Source: Siphonodentalium dalli (lineage: Eukaryota > Mollusca > Scaphopoda > Gadilida > Siphonodentaliidae). From it: DNA of 64,000 bases. How positions within the stretch are numbered: the first letter of the stretch is position 1; every line of letters starts with the position of its first letter. This document shows, piece after piece, positions 21,786-62,433 of the stretch. The notes beneath the pieces were generated by a model. It was not told where the DNA came from and made no database searches. It saw nothing but the letters and a program-made list of their open reading frames with translations. Location: contig CP136068.1 of assembly GCA_032622095.1 (NCBI GenBank), positions 117,601,509-117,665,508 on the forward strand, given 5' to 3'. Position numbers and translations under genes: made by a program.

Positions 21786-24700
21786 TGCTATTACGTCAGC
21801 GTTTATGCTATTTTGTAATTCGGGCAAAATCGGAGCCGGTTTTGAAAAGGCACGCATCGTCAGAAAAACGTCGGGTAGGTCATGTAATGTATATCGTTAA
21901 TGTTGAGATAAAAAAAAAACGTCGGTCCCATAACTTAAAGGTACGGTTGGCCTTGGCGGTGGGTATCCTGTGAAAATATTTCCACCCATCAAAAACCGCC
22001 ACAAACAGAAAGAACATCAAAATGTAGACAGACTTTGTCCGTATACAAATAAGAAATATCGCATAAACAGTATGTTATTGTCATTTGTTTGACCATTGTT
22101 ATGTAAACAAAAACATAAAAAGTAACTTTTCTGGTGTTTGTTTATATTATGATGGTAAACATAAAGAGCGTTCTGTGTTGCTGAATTCCTGATATGGAAC
22201 TAATAAAGAGCGTTTATATCATTTGTGAGTGATTAGCCAGTGACACTGTGCTGTCTTCTGTAACACAATCAGGCTCTTGCTTATGTAAAATATAGTAAGT
22301 CTTTATGATAGCATGCTGTTTACGCGATGGTCATGGTATATATGAACGTAACTGTATGCGTTTTAATGTTTGTCTGTTTACGGTGTTTGGAACAAATATG
22401 AATATTTTCGACAACTAAGGCCAATCGTGCCTTTAACCCTGTGGTACTCCAATCGTAATGAGGGTTATATATCGAAAGAGAGCCAGAAATTTTAACCATT
22501 TGTTGCATATTACTAGGGTAGCAATTGAACCAATTAATTGTCGAATACCTTTTTTCAAATACTTTAGCAATGCAGCATACCAAGAAATTAAGTATGTAGT
22601 TATTTGTATCGTGACAATCTCCTTTATTAAATATCAGGATTACATCGGCCTTTTTTCCATTCACGTGGGTATGTTGACGTATATGTATATAATGAGTGAT
22701 TGAATAGTTTCATGAGGGTTTAGAAACGTTGTAACATGTTGTGTTTTTGATGTTGCTGATTTCAGCATGAGCGGTGTCTTTCTCTATCGTCAAACCAGTT
22801 AATTTGAGGACATTTCGGATTCACTAGTTTTTTATAGATTTCAATTTGTTGAGGCCCTAAACTAAAATTCAGGTAGCTGTGTTGGTTCAGGGGGCATACC
22901 GACTCTCCACGGGAAGACCGAGTTTATTATTTCTGCTTTGAGTTTGTCGTCGTCGACGATATAAGTTCGTTAGATGTGATATATAATATAAGTTGTTAAT
23001 GTTATAGTTTCCTAGATACGTCTCTCAATAGTAATATTATTCATGGAATGCTTGTTATTTTCAAAAATAATTTGGGATCTTTTACTAATTACAATAGGCC
23101 CCTTTGGCAAACGTTTTCCTATTATTTGCTTTGTTACGTACGAGTTTCTTTATTATTTAACACAACGATGTTGCCAACATAAATTCTGCGCAATAAACAT
23201 TAAGTGTATTACGCCAACGAGGTTGTATTATGTGGGTACTACTTCGTGACGTACGCATACATGTATATATGCAAATTACCAGTTTTAGGTGATTGTGATT
23301 GCAAGTAATTATCTTGTTTTATTTGCTATGTAAGATGAACACTAACTTTGGCAATGTTGACATATTTTATGTCATATCGGACAATGCATTTTTAAGTTCA
23401 CCACATGGAAGATTGAGTTTGTCCTTATGTACATATGGTGCAATTATATGACATATGGTATCAAATTTTAGGCATAATTCTTCTCTGATAGTCGCTTAAA
23501 ACACTTCTCAAAATCGATATATGTTTGGGGTACCCATTTTATATGTCAGTATTTTACCAGAACGCTGCAATTAAAAAATCTATACTCTACCTTAAATGTG
23601 TCGGTAGGTATTATCTACCAAGAACAAACATACCCTTTGTCTCTTTTGATACCGAGTTTCGGTTTGGTCGATAGACTAATGTAGACCTCAAATTTGAGAA
23701 AAAACGAACAAACAATTGATCCTATATAACAATAATGTGTGACGAACATTAAAATGTTTTCTATCCAATGTGAATTAAAGAACATTTTTAACGTTATATG
23801 TGTGTCACAAAGGGATATAAGCATGATGGAAATATTGTTGCTCTGAAGAACTTCTTCGAAGGGCAGTGTGATACACGTATTCTTTGGTATTTGTTTGCTG
23901 AGATATATATCTTATGATCGCCATAATTATGGGGACAGCACAATCCCAGCTTTTATCGAGCGCATTGGTTGCCCCAGTGTTAAATGGCTACTTGGATCGA
24001 GTTTTTCTTAAGAAACTAAAACCCCAGATGACTAAGAATCCGTGATCAATGCTGATTCTTTGTTGTTGGGACCAGCTATATGATAATGCCTAATGTACAC
24101 ATGGTTAATGTATATTCACCGACCAGCGTTTTATAAAACAGAGAACGCCGGGAATGTCGGTCATGTAATAAGGATGACAACAACAAAAAACAAAAAAGGC
24201 TGAACACAAAACAAAAGTGGAAACCGAACAAAACAGAAGACAAACAAACTCAGCACAAAAACAAGGACCGGTGACGCAGGCGATGGAACTCTGATACGGG
24301 ACAGCATTGTGGAACGACGTTTAGATTTCTTACAATGTGTTTAGACTTCCTCGTTTAAAGGGCGACCTATTCATGCACTGGGTAACCAAAGAGCGGAACG
24401 TTCCTGAATTGTAGTTTCCCGATTGTAACAAAAGAGTTCTTAATCGTCTCATTTGGGAACAGATGACATGAGGTGGTATATTTCGATGACTACATGGCAT
24501 TCATGAAGATTTTAACGTGTGTGGTCTCGCTCCGAAATACACATAATGATATTCGCTTTTGAATTCTTCCCGGTATCGACATCGGCAGATAAATACCTAA
24601 ATGACCTTTCTACATCCATTATAATTATGTCCCGGAAAACGCATTGGAGTCATAATGCTATACAACTTCGCACGCGTTGTTCGTGCCCGAGCGCTTTGTA

Positions 24701-46034: not shown

Positions 46035-47614
46035 GGAGGATAATATGAGAACCTCCCCCCACGTGTGACTGGAGGATAATATGATAATCTCCCTCGCGTA
46101 TGATCGGTGGATAATATGAGAACCTCTCTCGCATATGACCGGCGGATTATATGTTCATATGAGAACCTCCCCTACGTATGACCGGTGGATAATATGAACC
46201 TCCATTGCGTATGACCGGCGGATAATATGTTCATATCAGAACCTCCCCCACTATGACCGGAGGATAATATGAGAACCTCCCTCGCGTACGACCGGCAGAT
46301 AATATGAACCTCCACCGCGTATGACCGGCGGATAATATGTTCATATGAGAACCTCCCCTACGTATGACTGGAGGATAATATGAGAACCTCCCTCGCGTAT
46401 TACCGGCAGATAATATGAGAACCTCCACCGCGTATGACCGGTGGATAATATGTTCATATGAGAACCTCCACCGCGTATGACCGGCGGATAATATGTTCAT
46501 ATGAGAACCTCCCCTACGTATGACCGGTGGATAATATGAACCTCCATCGCGTATGACCGGCGGATAATATGTTCATATCAGAACCTCCCCCTCGTATGAC
46601 CAGAGGATAATATGAGAACCTCCCTCGCGTATGACCGGCAGATAATATGAACCTCCACCGCGTATGACCGGCAGATAATATGTTCATATGAGAACCTCCC
46701 CTACATATGACTGGAGGATAATATGAGAACCTCCCTCGCGTATGACCGGCGGATAATATGTTCATATGAGAACCTCCCCAACGTATGACCAGAGGATAAT
46801 ATGAGAACCTCCTTCGCGTATGACCGGTGGATAATATGAACCTCCACCATGTATGACCGGCGGATAATATGTTCATATCAGAACCTCCCCCGCGTATGAC
46901 CGGAGGATAATATGAGAACTTCCCTCGCGTATGACTGGCGGATAATATGAACCTCCACCGCGTATGACCGGCAGATAATACATTCATATGAGATCCTCCA
47001 CCGCGTATGACCGGCGGATATGTTCATATGAGAACCTCCCCTACGTATGACCGGTGGATAATATGAACCTCCATCGCGTATGACCGGCGGATAATATGTT
47101 CATATCAGAACCTCCCCCACGTATGACCGGAGGATAATATGAGAACCTCCCTCGCGTATGACCGGCAGATAATATGAACCTCCACCGCGTATGACCGGCA
47201 GATAATATGTTCATATGAGAACCTCCCCTACGTATGACTGGAGGATAATATGAGAACCTCCCTCGCGTATGACTGGTGGATAATATGAGAACCTCCCTCG
47301 CGTATGACCGGCGGATAATATGTTCATATGAGAACCTCCCCAACGTATGACCGGAGGATAATATGAGAACCTCCCTCGCGTATGACCGGTGGATAATATG
47401 TACCTCCACCATGTATGACCGGTGGATAATATGTTCATATCGGAACCTCCCCCGCGTATGACCGGAGGCTAATATGAGAACTTCCCTCGCGTATGACTGG
47501 CGGATAATATGAATCTCCACCGCGTATGACCGGCAGATAATATGTTCATATGAGAACCTCCCCGCGTATGACTGGCAGATAATATGAGAACCTCCAACGC
47601 ATATGAATGGCGGA
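46035..47614 (-). repeat. Right-arm tandem array of the fold-back element
   Basis: The same monomers run in the opposite orientation. The array is about 1.58 kb, compared with 0.92 kb on the left, so the arms differ in copy number by unequal expansion. The order of variant monomers partly mirrors the left arm. Confidence 0.9.
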
Positions 47615-48584
47615 CACATAAGTTTTTAAGTCTATAAACACTATTTGATTTGAATATTCTGTTGAATAGTCTTACCATTGACATATCCATTCGTTCAAAC
47701 CAGTAGATCTATTTTGTAGCTTGGCTTTTAGTCGCCGGGCTCCGGCATCTGGGCTTTTAGTCACAACTGAAATAAAAATAAGTGCGAATATCTTGGAGCG
47801 AATTTCTGCAACAATTTCACCGCGTAGTGGACTCATTTGGAAAAAAATACATTCACTGTGTCTAATCCTACATTTTGATATACTATACGCCCCATTATAT
47901 GGAATATACCAGCTGAAATCGATCCTGTAATTGTAAACATCGAGTCTATTTTTAGCTGTTTTATCGGCGCGTGTTTGCATGTTCGCCATTACAATATTCG
48001 CACTAAAACAGCCAAATTGTAGCTAAAAACGAATGCACAGTATTCCACTGCGTTATTTGATACCTAAAAATTGTTGTTTGCTAGCGTATTCATCGAGAAA
48101 TCTAAATTATAAACATTAATGTCGAACGCAGTTTTTCGTGTTTGTGGCATTTTATGTTAGGTCAGTTGTCGACCGAATAATGTAACTTCCGGTGTCCGGT
48201 CAGTGGCGGGGTTAATATGTGTGGATATGGCGAATGTGGACCTTTCGTTAGACACCAAAAGGCGCGTTCTACGCGCTGTATTCCTCGAGATATCGGCCGT
48301 CCCACGCAATTTGAAAATCCTGTCCCGCAGATTGTCATTCTATCCCAAATTCCACCCCATGTTAGGTCAGTTATCGGTCAAATAATGCAACTTCTGGTGT
48401 CCGGTCAGTGGTAGGGTTAATATCTGTGGATATGGCGAATGTGGGCCTTTCATTAGACACCAAAATGAGCCCCCTACGCCCTGTATTCCTCGAGATATCG
48501 GCCGTCCCACGCAATTTGATATTCTGTCCCGCAGATTGTCGTTTTGTCCCATATCCCATCCCATCCCGCAGATTGTCATGTCCC

Positions 48585-53809: not shown

Positions 53810-54764
53810 TCACATGTCAATTCAAAGATGGCTGCTGGCGGCTATGTTGTTTAACATTATTTGGAAAACAAATTGATGGCCCCAATCTAGTGGTCACCCA
53901 AAAGATCCATGTGAAATTTGGGATGGTCGTATGACGGATGTGGTCTGTAGTATATGCCAAAGGATTTAGTCACGCAAAAAAATAGAATCCAAAATGGCCA
54001 CCCGTGGCCATGTTGTTCTACGAAATTCGGAACAATTATAGAGATCCAAGAGGTGATCATAAACACACCATTTTTCCGATAAATGCGGGCTACATGGTGT
54101 GCCAATGGATTCAAATTTGAAATACAAGTTGTTTGCTGGCAGTCATGTTTTAAAACTAATTTCGGGAGAAATCGATAGCATCTAGAGGTCACCCTGATTA
54201 TTCATATGACGTTTGGTGATGATCAGTCAAGGGATGTGGTTTGTAGGGTGTGTAAACGGATTTGGTAGTGCAAAGTGTAACATACAAGATGACTGCCGGC
54301 GGCCATATTTTTCATCGAAAATCGTTCAAATTCGATAGATCCCATCTAGAGGTGATCCTAAACATACCTGTCAAAACAGTTCAAAACAGTTCTCAGATAA
54401 ATACGACTGCTGGGTGTGCCGATGGATTCAAATTTGAAATCCAAGATGGCTGCTGGTGTCCAGATTTTAAACGAGTTTCGAAAATAATATATGGCTCCCC
54501 TCGAGAGGTCACCCCGAAGATCCATGTGAAGTTCGGTGACGATCGGGTGAGGGGTGTGGCCTGTAATTGTGTGCTGAAGGATTTTGTCATGCAAAGAGTG
54601 AAATCCAAGATGGTCGCTGGTTCAAATGTATTAGTGTGCAGCCATATTTTTAAACGAATTTCGAAAACAAATCGATGGCTCCCATCTAGAAGTCACCCTG
54701 AAGATTCATATAAAGTTTGGTGATGGTGGGATGAGGAATGTTGCCTGTAAGGCATGCCAAATGA
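53810..54764 (+). repeat. ~160-bp tandem array with AAGATGG motifs (left part)
   Basis: Degenerate units are marked by CCAAGATGGCTGCTGGCGGCC-type text at about 53825, 53993, 54127, 54287, 54444 and 54604. Each continues with a GATAGCTCCCATCTAGAGGTC-like segment and a 'gccaaaggatttagtcatgcaaagag'-like segment. The array is interrupted at 54764 by the transposon and resumes at 61270. Confidence 0.8.
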
Positions 54765-54768
54765 TTAA

Positions 54769-55150
54769 ACGGACATGGCTCTTTCGAACCTCCATTTTTT
54801 TTCTACGTAATTTTGAGCGACGGATACGATAGGTCGATAAATAAACGAACTATTGATATGCCGGCTGCATATGCACTGATAATCACTTGCCAAAGTCACA
54901 GTCATTTTTCAGCCGTTTTCAACTTTTCGCCAGAAGTCAAACAAACGCTCTTTATTGCTACCATATCAATAATAGACTAAAACAGAACGCTCTTTTCTGT
55001 TCCGTGTCGTGCAAATAGTATAGTCGTTGTGGTGATTTTGGAGGGTGAACGTAGAAAAATTGTTATAAAGCCAGTTTTGGTGTCATTTTGACCGGGAATG
55101 TTTGGACAACAATATATCCAAAATCCGCTAAAATCCGCTTTGGGGAAATT
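54769..55150 (+). repeat. Left terminal/sub-terminal inverted repeat of the transposon
   Basis: Best matched to the right end over 55033-55150, about 80% by eye, including the nearly identical AACAATATATCCAAAATCC. The outer part is more diverged (a GTCGATAAATA-type block is shared). Confidence 0.65.
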
Positions 55151-55739
55151 TTTTTGCAGTCATTTGAATACAGGACGTTTCGTCATTATGCCACAAAATT
55201 TCGTAATGCAGATAAATACAAACAGTTTACTTGTGTTAGCTCGCAAACACTTATGCGTGGCAAGTTCGCATGGATAATTGTCATATGATGATACGATAAC
55301 ATGACCCACCACAGTGTAAGCCATATTTGCCCCCACCAATAAAGAGCGTTGAGTAAAATACCAAGGCATGCGTGCGCACCATACATAAATAGTGTTTTGT
55401 GAGCGTTGGAGGAAAACACCACAATAAGCCATGTGTGCGCTCCAGTGATAAAGAGCGTTAACATAGAACGACATAACGCACTTCACTGCAGTTGTGCAAA
55501 CCACAAGTCGCATTGTTTAGTTGTTTCTAATATATCACTTCGATTTTGTATCTCTAATTGTGAAAGTTGTAAAAGTAGCCTGTTTAGGAGTCAGACACAT
55601 GTTTCCTGTTGAAACCTAACGGTGACAACGTACGCATGAGATTTGTTTTGGTTAATTTGACTGCTTCATTCATTGTTCTCGTGTTCTGTTTTATTATTGC
55701 ATATTTATTCTCGCTCTATTTCATTTCTCATTGTTGATA

Positions 55740-55785
55740 ATGGCTGACAATCGTACCGTCGGCGAGGAGCTTAACCCAGCTGAAG
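55740..55785 (+). CDS. Transposon protein, first coding segment
   Basis: The ATG at 55740 opens MADNRTVGEELNPAE and one extra base, then the frame runs into the inserted MITE and stops within 15 codons. The sequence continues logically at 56240: the last G here plus AC there makes the Asp codon before LCVICG. The start is chosen as the only ATG in frame with the zinc-binding segment once the MITE is removed. Confidence 0.6.
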
Positions 55786-56233
55786 GTTACACTGGTGTAA
55801 ATGTTTTCCATAGGCCTCAGTGCTAACGTTTTAGCGTATAGTGTTGCCAATATAAATGTTGGGTCCAAAATTTTCTTTAAATCTGAAAAATTGACATTTT
55901 GGGAAACTTTTTACACAAAAAAATCATGTCTGTCTAGCAGGGAATTCGCCTTTAAATCTTATGTTTTCGTAACTAGTGTCAGAACCGCATAAAAAATACA
56001 GTCATATTTTAGACCACACCAAAAAATTCAAACTTCACTACAAAGGGTTAATTCCTGTGCCAATGGTTATTTTACCTATGGGAAATCATAGGGAAGAGGT
56101 GTGATGATTTTTTTATGTGAAAAGCACACAAGGCTATTGACCAATCAGGGTCCAGTGTCTATTTTATTCTCTCCTATATATTCCTCCCGCATCCGCTAGA
56201 TGTCACTCGGAACCTTATTTACACCAGTGTAAC
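55786..56233 (+). mobile_element. 448-bp MITE forming a potential intron (introner-like)
   Basis: The terminal inverted repeats are GTTACACTGGTGTAAA at 55786-55801 and its exact complement at 56218-56233. CTGAAG is duplicated at 55780-55785 and 56234-56239. An alternative reading is 17-bp inverted repeats with a TGAA duplication. The element's first two bases are GT, and the downstream duplication ends in AG. An intron spanning 55786-56239 would therefore excise the insertion and one duplication copy exactly and restore the interrupted frame. The donor GAAG|GTTACA departs from the consensus after GT, so splicing efficiency is uncertain. No coding sequence is present. Confidence 0.8.
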
Positions 56234-56239
56234 CTGAAG

Positions 56240-57078
56240 ACCTCTGTGTCATATGCGGTTTTGGTTTTGTTAATGATCCACCGGTAAAGGTTGGGGCAAA
56301 AGGTATTGTGACTCTCATAAGCTTTTGCGGACAACGGGGGCGACTTAATTTGAAACAATACCTCACCGCGCGCAGCCAGGTGACGCCTGTCGACAAAGTG
56401 CTGGTGCATGCAGGTTGCCGGAGAGATTTTACCGACACAAAAAGAAAGACACAAGATAATTTGGTGGTTTCAGAAGCGAAACGACTACGATCTGATGCAA
56501 CGCCAATCAATATAACAGAAGACTGCTTACTATGTGGAGTTCATACAAGCACTGATGTTAGACACCCAGATAGGTCCACACCAATGAGCAAAGTAGAGAC
56601 CATCCCTTTTAGGGACAAGCTCTTACAATGCTGTGCGCATAGACAGGATACTTTAGCATATGACGTGGAGAAGCGCATTCAAGGGTGCATTGACTTGGTA
56701 GCAGCAGAGGCCGTTTACCACCACGGATGTCTGACTCGAGTCTTGCAAGGCAAGAATGTGAGTCCACCCGAGAAAGGAAAAGCAGGTCGAAGATCAGATC
56801 AGGGTATGAAACATTGGTTCGAAAAGATTTGTAATTGGCTCGAGACAGAAGCTGGTGCTGAATTATACACTGTTAGTGAGTTACATTCCAGAATGGTTGA
56901 ATTCGCAGGCGAGTCAGAGGATTATACTATTAAAAGTTTGAAAGGTAACTTAGAGGAATACTATGCAGAATTCATGTTCTTCGCCGAGGTTAAGGGACGG
57001 AAGGATGTCGTTTGTTTTCGAAATATGGCCAAATTCATTATAAATGAAAAGTGGTACACTGATAAAAACAGGATTTAG
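56240..57078 (+). pseudogene. Transposon protein, N-terminal region with two C-x2-C...H-x2-C modules
   Basis: Counting from the ATG at 55740 with the MITE removed, two similar modules appear: C18-x2-C21 ... H72-x2-C75 (CVICG ... HAGCRRDF) and C111-x2-C114 ... H176-x2-C179 (CLLCG ... HHGCLTRV). Each would bind one zinc, and the pairing suggests an internal duplication of a DNA- or protein-binding module. A helical region follows (ELHSRMVEFAGESEDYTIKS). The frame ends at TAG (57076-57078) directly after a one-base loss near 57070; the conserved-looking sequence continues in another frame (DLDEEADRIVLTAARIIKAQ). Members of this family are common as multi-copy uncharacterised proteins in marine invertebrate genomes. 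Confidence 0.7.
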
Positions 57079-57422
57079 ATGAGGAGGCAGACAGGATTGT
57101 CTTAACTGCAGCAAGAATAATAAAAGCACAAATAAGGGAGGCCGATTACAGTCGCGAATCTTATCCACCCAGTGACGCTATATCTAGTATTAGTCAGGGG
57201 CAAAATTGGATCCCGAATCACCTGCAAAGCCTACTAAAGATTTTAATTCCGTCCGATGTCAAGCAGAATGACATCGGTAATTCCATTGTACAGGGTGCTC
57301 GTCCACGTTCGGTTATAACACCAACGCTGTTTGGACTCGGTGTAGAAATGGACCATGTGTTTGGTTCCAAATGGCTAGTGAACGAGTTATCCCGCAAAGG
57401 GATTCTCTGTTACCCACGATGA
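57072..57422 (+). pseudogene. Transposon protein, frame-shifted middle segment
   Basis: In the frame opened at 57072 the sequence reads DLDEEADRIVLTAARI and later SKWLVNELSRKG before running into TGA at 57420-57422. The following part of the protein (FSVTHDEVERY) resumes in the earlier frame after one extra G in the GGG at 57399-57401. A single-base loss followed by a single-base gain 330 bp later brackets this segment, showing decay of an originally continuous frame. Confidence 0.7.
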
Positions 57423-59259
57423 AGTTGAGAGGTACAAACAATCCGTCATTCAGACCGAAACGCCCAGTCAAATACTAACTGACTATGCACCCGGTGCCTT
57501 CGTTCAGTGGGTGGCAGATAATGTCGACCACAACATAGCAACTCTGGATAGCAGGGGGACCTTCCATGGAATGGGGATAATTGCAATATCTGCACCCGTG
57601 AATCAATCAGCACTGAACATGAAATCGCGTGTAATCATGAGACAAAAGCGGTTGAGGGTTGATGAGCTCGTGAAGAACAAAGGAGTGTCCATCTCCCAAT
57701 ATGTTGATGTTATTGGCAAAGGAATTTCCAATATCAAACTGAAACCTCTTCTTCGTTTGGCCACACCCTATACCCTCCCATCTGACCTCAGCACAGATCT
57801 GCTGTGGCACTCAGCATGCTTTTTCAGTAAGAGTGAAAAACCTAGCGCGAACTGGTCAGGTTTCATGCAAAGTGCTTACTCGCAGGACGACACTCTGACC
57901 GCTGAGAAATCTGATGTTCTGTTCCTTCCCATCATCGATCTGAATCCGTCGGATGACGATTGCATTTATTCTACACTGATTTATGTTGAGGAACAGGCAC
58001 GTAGATTGAACATCCACACGCCATGTATCACTTTCGACCAGCCGTTGTGGTTCAAGGCTGTAAACATAATAAGTTCTAAGTCGATGAACATAGTGTGTAG
58101 GCTGGGCGGATTTCACACTGTAATGAGCTTCATGGGGAGTATCGGTTCGATGATGAAGGGGTCGGGGTTAGAAGAAGCTTTGGAGAAAGTGTACGGTCAG
58201 AACACAGTGACCCATATGATATCTGGAAAGGCAGTGTCGACGGCATTGCGTGGTCACTACCTAGTTGAGGCTGCGCTTTTCAATAAGTTGATAGCTGAAG
58301 TTGTCCCAGTTGAAAAGGACGGCAGTTCTGCGGACATCGAATCGGTACTGGAACAAGATGACATAGAAGCCTCACACGTGCAACAGGGTGGTGTACACGT
58401 TGTTGGTGAAAACACGATGGGCAAAATGCACCAGAGTGAAATGGACAGAATACAAAAATTGCGTGAAGAAATTGAAATTGGTGTTGTTCCTATATCCGCG
58501 GCTGCGGACTCAACTGAACCGTTGAAGCTCGAGCAATTTATCAATTGTTATAAACCACTGCTTGTCAAAGAATCCCTCACAGCAAAATTGTGGGTGCAGT
58601 ATATGGATTATGTGCAAACCCTACAGAACTTCATCCGTGCTGAGCGAACAGGGGATTGGAATCTGCATATTGTAACAGTAGGGAAGATGCTGAACCTCTT
58701 CGCAGCCACTAGTCATATAAATTACGCAAAGAGCTGCAGACTATATCTCCAAATTATGCTAGAATTACCAGTGAAGCATCCTTGGGTACATCAGTGTTTT
58801 GAGGAACATGGCTTCCACATAGCCCGTAGAAGTAGCAGATTCTGGGCGGGGTTATCAACCGATCTTATTATTGAACAAGTACTGATGAGATCTATCAAGA
58901 GTCGAGGTGGGTTAACTCGAGGTAGAGGACTGACAGAAACAGTGCGTTTGCAGTGGATACTCAGTATGCACAGATGTGCAGAGATACACGATGCAATGAC
59001 CGAGTTTACCAAAATGCGACATAGTACCAGTGATCAGCACATTGAAATGGGAGAATCTAGGCGAAAGCGTGATTTCGATGATATGGTTAGTTTGCAAACC
59101 TGGTTTGATGACCACGACCCCTTTGATGCCAATGAGATAAAACTCCGTTCGTTGTCATCGGGGCTAACGTCCAATGGAACTGATGGCGTGAATTGTTCCG
59201 ATTCTGAGAGTGTTGGCCAAACAATCCAGAGAAAACTTGACAATTTGAGCATCACTTAG
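57403..59259 (+). pseudogene. Transposon protein, conserved central region
   Basis: About 618 codons read without interruption from FSVTHDEVERY to a TAG at 59257-59259. Conserved-looking blocks are CITFDQPLWFKA (near 58024-58059), RLGGFHTVMSFMGSIG (58099-58146), FAATSHINYAKSCRLYLQ (near 58700-58755) and FWAGLSTDLIIEQVLMRS (near 58842-58895), then GGLTRGRGLTETVRL. I recall these blocks as a family signature in marine invertebrates, but no function has been assigned that I know of. An RNase-H-like (DDE) core beginning at the Asp of TFDQ is conceivable and unproven. The terminal TAG may be a mutated CAG, since IKRKDHIKSL just after it continues plausibly. Confidence 0.65.
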
Positions 59260-59299
59260 GCATCAATTAAAAGGAAAGATCACATAAAGTCGCTGGATC

Positions 59300-60619
59300 A
59301 TCTGTATCCCGGGATTCGAGTTGATAACGAGCGAGTTGACGACCATACCAACTTCTCTGTTCAAAGATCAATCAATGCGAAAACCAGCAAAATCACAGTT
59401 AGCAAAGGCTCTGACTGACTCCGTTCAGCAAGTCGAATATTCCCAGAAGGGAATTGCGACCGTTCTTGATGGCGGAGCTCTTCTCCATAGAGTGAAGTGG
59501 ATCAAAAACTCAACATACAAGGAAGTAGCCACTCAATATCAGAACTACGTCAGAACAAAGTATGGCTCGAGTTGCATCGTGTTCGATGGTTATGGTCATG
59601 GCCCGTCTATTAAAGATCACGAGCACAACCGGCGATCTGGCAAAACATGTGCCGAAGTTCGGGTCACTGAAACAACAGCGAGCCACAATAACCAGCAAAT
59701 TTTCCTCTCAAATGAGAGAAACAAAAGTCAGTTCATCAACTTGATTGGCCGCCTCTTATCGGGTGATGGGCATGCAGTTCACAACAGCAGTGGTGACGCA
59801 GATACTCTGATAGTTTCTCATGCCCTAGAGTTTGCATCACATGGAAGAAACGTCAGAGTTATTGCGGACGACACCGATGTGATTATTCTTTTGATCCATC
59901 ATTGGAAATCCAAAATGGCCGACAGATTTTTCCAATCTGATGCTCGGAAATCTGGCAAAGGCAGTGCTGCCATATGGCGAATCGGTGACATCGTGCGCAA
60001 GGCTGGACAGTTCACAACTTCCCATATCCTGTTTGCACATGCATGGGGAGGCTGTGACACCACCTCTGCAATATTCGGACATGGGAAAACAAGTATCGTC
60101 AGAAAGATAAACGAGTCTGCTGAAGTTCGCAAAATATCATCACTCATGCAGGAATCTAGTGCTAATCAGAAAGACATTGGAGAGGCCGACATGAGGCTCT
60201 TCGTTGTAGTGTGTAGTGGTAAGAAAGAAGATTCTCTAAATACACTTCGGTATGCGAAGTTTATGGATATGGTATCTTCTAGCAAGACTGCATTAGAGCC
60301 CCAAAAACTCCCACCAACAGAACGAGCGGCATACTATCACAGTCTCAGAGTTCATCTCCAGGTGATGATTTGGAAAACACTGAATAATGACGTATTGAAT
60401 GCTGATGGGTGGGGTTTGGAACAACGTGGTGCGGATCTTTCCCCAGTCATGACTGACCAGAATGCAGCCCCAGACGAATTGCTCAAGTTTGTACGGTGCA
60501 AGTGTAAGATGTCATCAAAAAAGCCATGTGACACCAATGTGTGTACATGTCGCAAACATGGTCTGAAATGTGTTATCGCTTGTGGAGATTGTCGTGGAGA
60601 GGGCTGCATGAATTCATAA
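59300..60619 (+). pseudogene. Transposon protein, C-terminal FEN/PIN-like nuclease domain plus CXC domain
   Basis: A third frame carries ~437 codons to TAA at 60617-60619. Counting from ATA at 59321 as residue 1, acidic residues fall at D50 (LDGGALLHR), D89 (VFDGYGHGP), D159 and D161 (GDADT), D184 and D186 (DDTD), and D246 (GGCDTTSAIFGHGK). Human FEN1 uses D34, D86, E158, E160, D179, D181 and D233, so both the paired i/i+2 residues and the overall order match. The GCDxxxxIxGHGK stretch resembles the FEN/XPG helix-hairpin-helix GxGPKxA. Residues ~392-432 (CKCKM, VCTCRKHGLKC, CGDCRGEGC) form a tesmin/TSO1-type CXC zinc-cluster domain, a sequence-specific DNA binder. The segment is separated from the central region by a stop and a frame change at 59257-59320. 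Confidence 0.7.
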
Positions 60620-60944
60620 GAGGTTCTGATAGATGACGAGGATGAGGTCTGAGTATAAATGTTATATTTGACACACAATCTTGAAGTATTTCTCATTCTG
60701 GTCATCACTGGCTGATTTCGATCAACAAAATAAACAAAAGAAATAATTGTCATTTTAGCGGCCATTTTGGTTGCCATCTTTTGACTCTGTGACTGATATT
60801 TTGTCAGTGTGACTCCCGTGGAATCCTTTGTCAAACGTGATGACATTTGTACGAGAGCAAACTCATTACCCCTACCTAACAATGGACTAATGCTGATTGG
60901 GGAATATTTATAATCGTTGGCCGCCACCTTGGACGCCATCTTGA
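60620..60944 (+). other. Transposon 3' untranslated/sub-terminal region
   Basis: It contains AATAAAC near 60730 and AGCGGCCATTTTGGTTGCCATCTTTTGAC, a minus-strand AAGATGGC-type motif similar to the surrounding array. No further coding sequence is seen. Confidence 0.5.
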
Positions 60945-61265
60945 ATCCTGAATTTTCCCCAAGGCGGATTTTAGCGGATTTTGGATATGTTATTCCTGAT
61001 ACTTTTGCGCGCAAAATGAGACCAAAACCAGCTTTATAACAATTTTTTCCAGGTTCAACCTCCCGACGATCACACTAAAATGGCTGATTTGAGTTTGGGA
61101 CCCAAAAACCGTATTCACAGTAGTATTTTTAATTACTTCAATGCGTCTTTTTTGGTTACATAATGCTCGTAGAAAGGTAGTTAATATATTTATCGACTTA
61201 TTTCGAGAAAAATTCAAAAGCGAATAATATTATGTGTATTTTGGAACCCAAACCGCCATGTGGCT
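60945..61265 (-). repeat. Right terminal/sub-terminal inverted repeat of the transposon
   Basis: Complement of the left end: GGCGGATTTTAGCGGATTTT, TTTATAACAATTTTTTCC and GGTTCAACCTCC correspond to left-end segments. It ends at the TTAA of 61266-61269. Confidence 0.65.
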
Positions 61266-61269
61266 TTAA

Positions 61270-61400
61270 GTCATGGAAAGAGTAAAATTAAAGTTGGCTG
61301 CTGGCGGCCATATTTTTAATCGATAGCTCCCATTTAGCGGCCACCCTAGACGTGCCTGTAAATTTTAAAATAGGAGTAGTTTCAACACGTTTTTGAATCT
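61270..61400 (+). repeat. ~160-bp tandem array, continuation after the transposon
   Basis: AAGTTGGCTGCTGGCGGCCA, then TCGATAGCTCCCATTTAGCG, in the same orientation and register as the 53.8-54.76 kb units. It supplies the other half of the unit broken by the insertion. Confidence 0.75.
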
Positions 61401-62433
61401 TTGCCAGGCTAGCAAAAACTCCGATAATCCTGTGCCAGGGAATTATCTTATATATGCGAGTCTCCCACTGGGAGCCTTGCATATATACGATAATGCACTG
61501 GCTTACAAGTAGTCCATGAGCCAGGACCGAGAATGGTACCATTTTGGTTGGCAAATTCTATCAACATATTTCTCAAAGCTTATAATCTGAAGTTTATCTG
61601 AGTGCTGGTGCGCACTGTGGCAGTGTAGCTTAGTGTGCAAAATTTGTGTTTCCATGGCAACAGAGGTTGTTTTTGGCCAGTATAAAAAATATGCCTATAA
61701 TGGTTTACAACTGGAAAGTTTAAAGCAGTAACTCTATCTTTGCATTGATATAGGGTTTTGGTGGACTTTCTTTTGGCACGGGGGATTTCATCCCTAGAGG
61801 TCAAGGTCATACACAAAGGTCAAGGTCATTCACCAAAATATTAGCTTTTTTCATATCGGGTCATACATTTTCTACCCCCAGATTTTATATATTTGTTCTT
61901 AATACGTTATCTGTGTTCCTAAATAAGCTGTAGCGTATATGCTACATGGAGAACTGCGTTATTGTTGAAACTGACATGTCAGTCATGAGATGTGGCCTTT
62001 AAACTTGGTGACCATTTTCCAAAATGGGTCAAATCAGTTATTTCCGTATATATCATGCTTCTGTGTGCAGTCCAGGCCGCAGTGCATGGAAATGTAAGAA
62101 TTGCAGAAATTATGGTAAAAGCATGAAATTTCCAACATATGTCAAGTTCCTTAGACATAATCTTTTCATTTTCAGATATAGACCCTATCAAGATATGGCC
62201 CTGCTTAGCAAGGGTTGCTAGGCAACTACCCAAAAGTATTAAATGCTCATATAAGGATGTATTACAGTATTTCATTCAACTTTAGTTGTTGTGAATTGCA
62301 TATGTGAGGTCTATGTGTGGCATAGGATGAATTACAAAGACTTGTGACCTTGGTTCCTATCATAATGTCCATAACAACCGTTGCTATGCAACTACCCAGA
62401 CAGTAAAATGTATATGTGGCACTCTTCTCGATG
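61401..62433. other. Intergenic sequence with hairpin and direct repeat
   Basis: A TATATGCGAG hairpin lies at 61434-61502. AGGTCAAGGTCAT is duplicated at about 61798-61830. GTTGCTAGGCAACTACCCA near 62212 recurs as GTTGCTATGCAACTACCCAG near 62381. No gene is recognised. Confidence 0.5.
61434..61502. repeat. TATATGCGAG hairpin element (diverged copy)
   Basis: GCCAGGGAATTATCTTATAT pairs with ATATACGATAATGCACTGGC with several mismatches around CCCACTGGGAG. Confidence 0.75.

Follow-up and report, generated by a model that had tools for sequence, protein, structure and literature searches.

A decayed, very probably AcademX-type transposon of Siphonodentalium dalli with a predicted Exo1/FEN-like nuclease joined to a DDE transposase core

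The Academ superfamily is counted among the DNA transposons that use a DDD/E transposase (PMC9587614), and two lineages of it have been described. According to the summary in PMC10045372 (2023), AcademH elements encode a helicase and are flanked by target-site duplications of 9 or 10 bp, whereas AcademX elements encode a nuclease and are flanked by duplications of 3 or 4 bp; the length of the duplication is suggested there to relate to the encoded helicase or nuclease. A source from 2016 (PMC5199201) gives 3 bp for Academ, and citing papers credit the superfamily to Kapitonov and Jurka (2010) and AcademX to Kojima (2020). As described in passages of PMC10294476, curated bivalve Academ elements have a mean length of 5565 bp and, among molluscs, Academ occurs almost only in bivalves. 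Accessory nucleases also accompany the DDE transposases of KolobokE, KolobokD and KolobokP (PMC9587614). Here we describe a transposon from a 64-kb stretch (the window) of the Siphonodentalium dalli genome (2.23 Gb, nine contigs). In its identity and anatomy, leaving aside what its nuclease does, this element is very likely a decayed copy of an AcademX-type DNA transposon, in which a single protein of about 1500 amino acids (aa) would comprise N-terminal zinc modules, a DDE core, an Exo1/FEN-like nuclease and a CXC tail.

The limits of the element are set by its copies elsewhere in the genome. When the window region was compared by BLAST with the loci of other copies, similarity broke off sharply at about 55016 and 61077, just inside which lie imperfect terminal inverted repeats of about 137 bp (Table 1). 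The exact left end was set on the window copy and on L031, a related copy at locus L010, by their equal 3-bp flanks, and the 12 other copies served as an independent test; the 3-bp flanks were equal in all 12. Both ends could be located in 14 of the 16 pairs tried, window and L031 included (the right end had no match in the other two), and all 14 copies have identical 3-bp flanks: AAA, TAT, AAC, TGG, GTG, TTG, TAT, CGG, TTG, AAG, TAA, TAC, CTA and ATA. A further 14 loci with a left end only are uninformative on the duplication. As a control, left and right flanks mixed between different copies agreed in 4 of 182 cases. Because the flanks match at 3 bp in copies with both ends, and mispaired flanks rarely agree, the window element is a transposon with a 3-bp duplication and TTAA is not its target. 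In a second family, whose ends were set on L032, a copy from another subfamily, both ends were located in four of six copies, and three of these four (L032 included) have a 3-bp duplication: TTA, TAG and TAG. One second-family copy, L065/L066, has differing flanks (TTA versus CAT), and on its left side CAT lies 2 bp farther outward.

These results bear out one part of a first-pass annotation of the window, that a transposon lies here, and overturn another, that it is flanked by TTAA with ends at 54769 and 61265. An element with such ends would be a TTAA-specific transposon of piggyBac or Kolobok type, as might be suggested by the TTAA sites at 54765 and 61266, each with ACATGGC close by, and by an inverted repeat of 24 nt. 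The copies, however, end about 250 bp (left) and 190 bp (right) further in, both TTAAs lie outside the region they have in common, and where TTAA flanks had been expected they carry 3-bp duplications of varied sequence. A TTAA-type transposon as the gene-bearing element is thereby refuted, and we regard this reading as exceedingly improbable. TTAA is frequent in the window, with 374 occurrences. The outer sequence (54765-55015 and 61081-61270), which holds the TTAA pair and the ACATGGC motifs, has its weak inverted repeat (83%; 54829-54852 and 61178-61201) just inside that pair, and may represent an earlier TTAA insertion into which the transposon jumped; its two parts together measure about 440 bp. 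Given the partial matches to this outer sequence on the opposite strand at 22163-22215 (81%) and 24531-24622 (75%), some of it may belong to a dispersed repeat.

The open reading stretches that were originally listed are real, and they are pieces of one gene, which runs in frame 1 from 56233, in frame 0 over 57066-57419, in frame 1 again to a stop at 59257 and in frame 2 to 60619. Its lesions comprise frame changes near 57073 and 57400, the stop codon at 59257-59259, a deletion of about 80 bp near 59335 relative to L031, and, in the 5' part of the coding region, a nested 448-bp insert that has short inverted repeats (GTTACACTGGTGTAAAT) and a duplication of 6 bp (CTGAAG). Because the reading frame is broken, we infer that the window copy is dead. 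Long open copies do exist: the genome search, in which 96 of 3922 candidates were scored, gave at least 101 places that match, and in eight of these the match is free of stops and the open frame is 1494-1585 aa long. Two of the eight were read, L010/L031 and L032. L031, an element of about 5.7 kb, has one frame of 1469 aa that ends before the CXC tail, and L032 has one frame of 1570 aa that includes it.

Residue conservation was counted across 225 aligned homologues of the protein. For the central region (57403-59259), structure prediction gives an RNase H fold, and the candidate catalytic D, D and E (Table 1) are conserved, which together argue for a DDE transposase core; this supports the alternative originally raised, in which an undetected DDE core carries a fused helper nuclease. 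The best structural matches of the core model are the P element and Hermes (hAT) transposases; Foldseek returned nothing with this model at E <= 0.001. An all-helical insert before the E is a feature of the P element and Hermes cores too, and these transposases are not known to have such a nuclease domain. Despite the likeness of the cores, membership in either group is rejected by the duplication, which is 3 bp here, where published descriptions give 7-8 bp for P elements and usually 8 bp for hAT. Part of the core is covered by DUF6589 (Pfam PF20231), in seven of 33 members at E <= 0.05 (best 3.5e-6) and, in a second scan, in 13 of 33 other members at E <= 0.1 (best 1.3e-6); one homologue, P0203, passes the curated cutoff (27.8 versus 27 bits). 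In single-sequence scans of Pfam and NCBIfam, the window pieces scanned, L031 and L032 all lacked a match above curated cutoff, and LacAB_rpiB, at E 0.006-0.03, was judged to be due to chance.

In the predicted nuclease domain, all seven acidic residues noted in the first-pass annotation are present, its numbering being correct if 59321 is taken as the start, and the GCDxxxxIxGHGK-type stretch (GCDTTSAIFGHGK) is found at 60050. The nuclease Asp residues are retained in 214-221 of the 225 homologues, within the same protein as the DDE core. By profile (a PDB search with a nuclease-only profile) and by predicted structure, the closest relatives are Exo1 and FEN1; when the query was the entire L032 protein or a profile of full length, the PDB sequence search gave no match. 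The conserved residues, the fold and the profile thus agree on a putative FEN/Exo1/XPG-superfamily nuclease. Exo1, FEN1 and XPG resemble this domain in fold and acidic residues and differ from it as free enzymes with an N-terminal nuclease, the domain here lying near the C-terminus of a transposase.

Selection has acted on this region. It is open and without stops, tail included, at seven loci of five subfamilies, and between subfamilies the proportion of nonsynonymous differences (pN 0.14-0.28) is far below that of synonymous ones (pS 0.68-0.85, mostly saturated), so the nuclease region has, as judged from these sequence comparisons, been under purifying selection across subfamilies. For L025 and L029, nonsynonymous divergence (dN) is 0.16 and synonymous divergence (dS) 1.77; pairs within subfamilies lack the signal (L019-L024, dN 0.020 and dS 0.033; L029-L030, dN 0.005 and dS 0). 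In the same region, 22 same-family sequences match L031. Twenty of them, including the window copy and L010, align over more than 900 bases, with identities to L031 of 95.1-100% (median 96.3%). Five same-family loci (L009, L013, L014, L045 and L052) form a cluster of about 10 kb (G000 C2:102926374-102935887) in which both orientations occur and two left ends face each other with three nuclease-region matches between them.

The N-terminus of the protein is rich in Cys and His and its tail in Cys, in keeping with the first-pass annotation. Two probable zinc modules are seen at the N-terminus in the sequence and in the alignment, their residues being kept in 182 (H79), 182 (C82), 191 (C122), 190 (C125), 199 (H186) and 197 (C189) of the 225 homologues, with nearly all the remainder gaps; the first C-x2-C pair is retained in at least 90% of 33 members. 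In the Cys-rich tail, each of nine Cys residues is conserved in 166-175 of 225, the remainder again almost all gaps. Pfam CXC gave no match in the scans made, and the CXC label is taken from the UniRef names of homologues.

The predicted DDE transposase, the nuclease encoded beside it and the 3-bp duplications (14 of 14 copies; three of four in the second family) together coincide with the summary of AcademX in PMC10045372, and on this we base the assignment. The length of L031 is also close to the bivalve Academ mean reported in PMC10294476. Academ membership is therefore very probable, on grounds that are strong but indirect, as the comparison is with published descriptions and not an alignment to Academ sequences. 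The suggestion that no described superfamily has this architecture is very probably wrong, given the published account of AcademX, and the kind appears to be already in the Repbase classification. If the assignment is right, AcademH belongs to the same superfamily, differing from the window element by its helicase in place of a nuclease and its longer duplications (PMC10045372).

Several points weigh against this assignment and would suit a separate, undescribed superfamily sharing merely the nuclease and the 3-bp duplications with AcademX. Pfam covers part of the core only as DUF6589, and neither such a core nor a CXC tail is mentioned in the passages that describe AcademX. Academ and XPG, as whole words, were not found together in the literature searched; the AcademX nuclease is said to have been named XPG by Kojima. 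Relatives also occur well outside bivalves. Three protein searches reported 250, 423 and 520 relatives in overlapping sets, and among the matches listed (the best 120 of each) are proteins from the molluscs Patella, Littorina, Mytilus, Mercenaria, Mizuhopecten, Argopecten and Pinctada, from a sponge (Dysidea) and from corals (Porites); the gastropod, sponge and coral relatives fit less well with the near restriction of mollusc Academ to bivalves given in PMC10294476. Against a separate superfamily, the nuclease with the DDE core, the 3-bp duplications and the length of about 5.6 kb all match the published descriptions of Academ and AcademX, and we consider it rather improbable. The listed homologues are named uncharacterized, unnamed, hypothetical or Tesmin/TSO1-like CXC domain-containing, and three of the 120 listed in one search (P0145, P0183 and P0203) are called 5'-3' exonuclease by the Joint Genome Institute (JGI). 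On a possible connection between DUF6589 and AcademH, no helicase domain was found in precomputed annotations of the best 120 of 520 relatives in the third search. One relative, P0093, shows 49% identity with 65% of the query covered. It is assigned to a bacterial metagenome-assembled genome, Sedimenticola sp., lies on a 5.6-kb contig, and may be stray animal DNA in a bacterial bin.

Other families that share single features with the AcademX-type element were rejected. The Kolobok lineages, as described, share an accessory nuclease and differ in the nuclease folds and in their TTAA duplications; piggyBac and Kolobok membership fail on the latter. CXC domains occur in KDZ transposons. Zisupton/KDZ membership is rejected by the duplication, 3 bp here against 8 bp reported for Zisupton (PMC12730594).

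For transposition, we propose that the zinc modules and the CXC tail would recognise and bind the element ends, and that the DDE core would generate a 3'-OH at each end and attach the two at target positions separated by 3 nt, a stagger that would result in 3-bp duplications. The nuclease would remove the 5' strand that is not transferred. It could trim or incise the ends on their 5' side, or it could act once the 3' strands have been transferred and cut off the 5' donor flap that the branched intermediate still carries. Whether it removes this strand at all, by one route or the other, we consider a roughly even call. A fuller version, in which two active sites in one polypeptide split strand cleavage, the DDE site taking the 3' ends and the Exo1/FEN-type nuclease the 5' strands, is offered tentatively, as less likely than not. 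A similar division of labour exists in Tn7, where the DDE enzyme TnsB acts on the 3' strands and a second nuclease, TnsA, on the 5' strands; there the two are separate proteins, and TnsA has a restriction-enzyme fold. In the main rival explanation, which we think possible though unlikely, the nuclease does not cleave ends and serves host-like repair, such as flap removal or resection, after ordinary cut-and-paste. Exo1 and FEN1, its closest relatives, are repair nucleases, which favours that role; the retention of the Asp set in the same protein across 214-221 of 225 homologues suggests, without proving, a core one. A core role is also favoured by the suggestion in PMC10045372 that, in the Academ lineages, the length of the duplication is related to the encoded helicase or nuclease.

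Table 1. Coordinates of the element and its parts in the window
Feature	Position	Strand	Basis
Whole transposon copy, TAGTATAGTCGTTG...CCCGACGATCACACTA	55016..61077	+	Sharp ends common to copies elsewhere in genome
Left target-site duplication, AAA	55013..55015	.	Copy alignment
Right target-site duplication, AAA	61078..61080	.	Copy alignment
Left terminal inverted repeat, imperfect	55016..55152	+	Repeat search and copy alignment
Right terminal inverted repeat, imperfect	60951..61077	-	Repeat search and copy alignment
Transposase gene, broken	55740..60619	+	Nested insert, frame changes, stop, deletion versus L031
Nested 448-bp insertion, ends GTTACACTGGTGTAAAT / ATTTACACCAGTGTAAC, duplication CTGAAG	55786..56233	.	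Absent from L031
N-terminal region, two C-x2-C ... H-x2-C modules, probable zinc fingers	56245..57075	+	Sequence and conservation
DDE transposase core, predicted RNase H fold, large all-helical insert before E-bearing helix	57403..59256	+	
First catalytic Asp candidates D39 and D42 (model numbering), motif ADNVDHN	57517..57528	+	222/225 each, 3 gaps
Second catalytic Asp candidate D212, motif FDQP	58036..58038	+	225/225
Catalytic Glu candidate E491, motif DLxIEQ	58873..58875	+	225/225
Putative FEN/Exo1/XPG-superfamily nuclease domain, limits approximate	59378..60410	+	Profile, predicted fold, conserved residues
Nuclease acidic codons	59468, 59585, 59795, 59801, 59870, 59876, 60056	+	Sequence
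CXC (Tesmin/TSO1-like) Cys-rich tail	60494..60616	+	Sequence; label from homologues' UniRef names

Elsewhere in the window, two 86-nt direct repeats (78% identity, starts 184 bp apart) lie within 54481-54750, just left of the element, and a near-palindrome with 34-nt arms (85% complementary, 1-nt spacer) spans 61434-61502. An open reading frame at 47041-47619 consists of short repeated stretches, YEHIIxRSY-like, and is perhaps a minisatellite read in frame. An Rfam scan at gathering thresholds gave no match.

The observations of the first-pass annotation are thus partly confirmed, and its interpretation is partly supported. More broadly, these data assign to the transposases a large set of proteins, most of them unannotated and many from marine animals, and supply residue-level maps of their two likely active sites. 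If the proposed role of the nuclease is correct, 5'-flap cutting of a strand-transfer intermediate would possibly amount to a join-first, cut-second pathway, and the long open copies in a single genome offer a way into why a transposase would need a flap-type nuclease.
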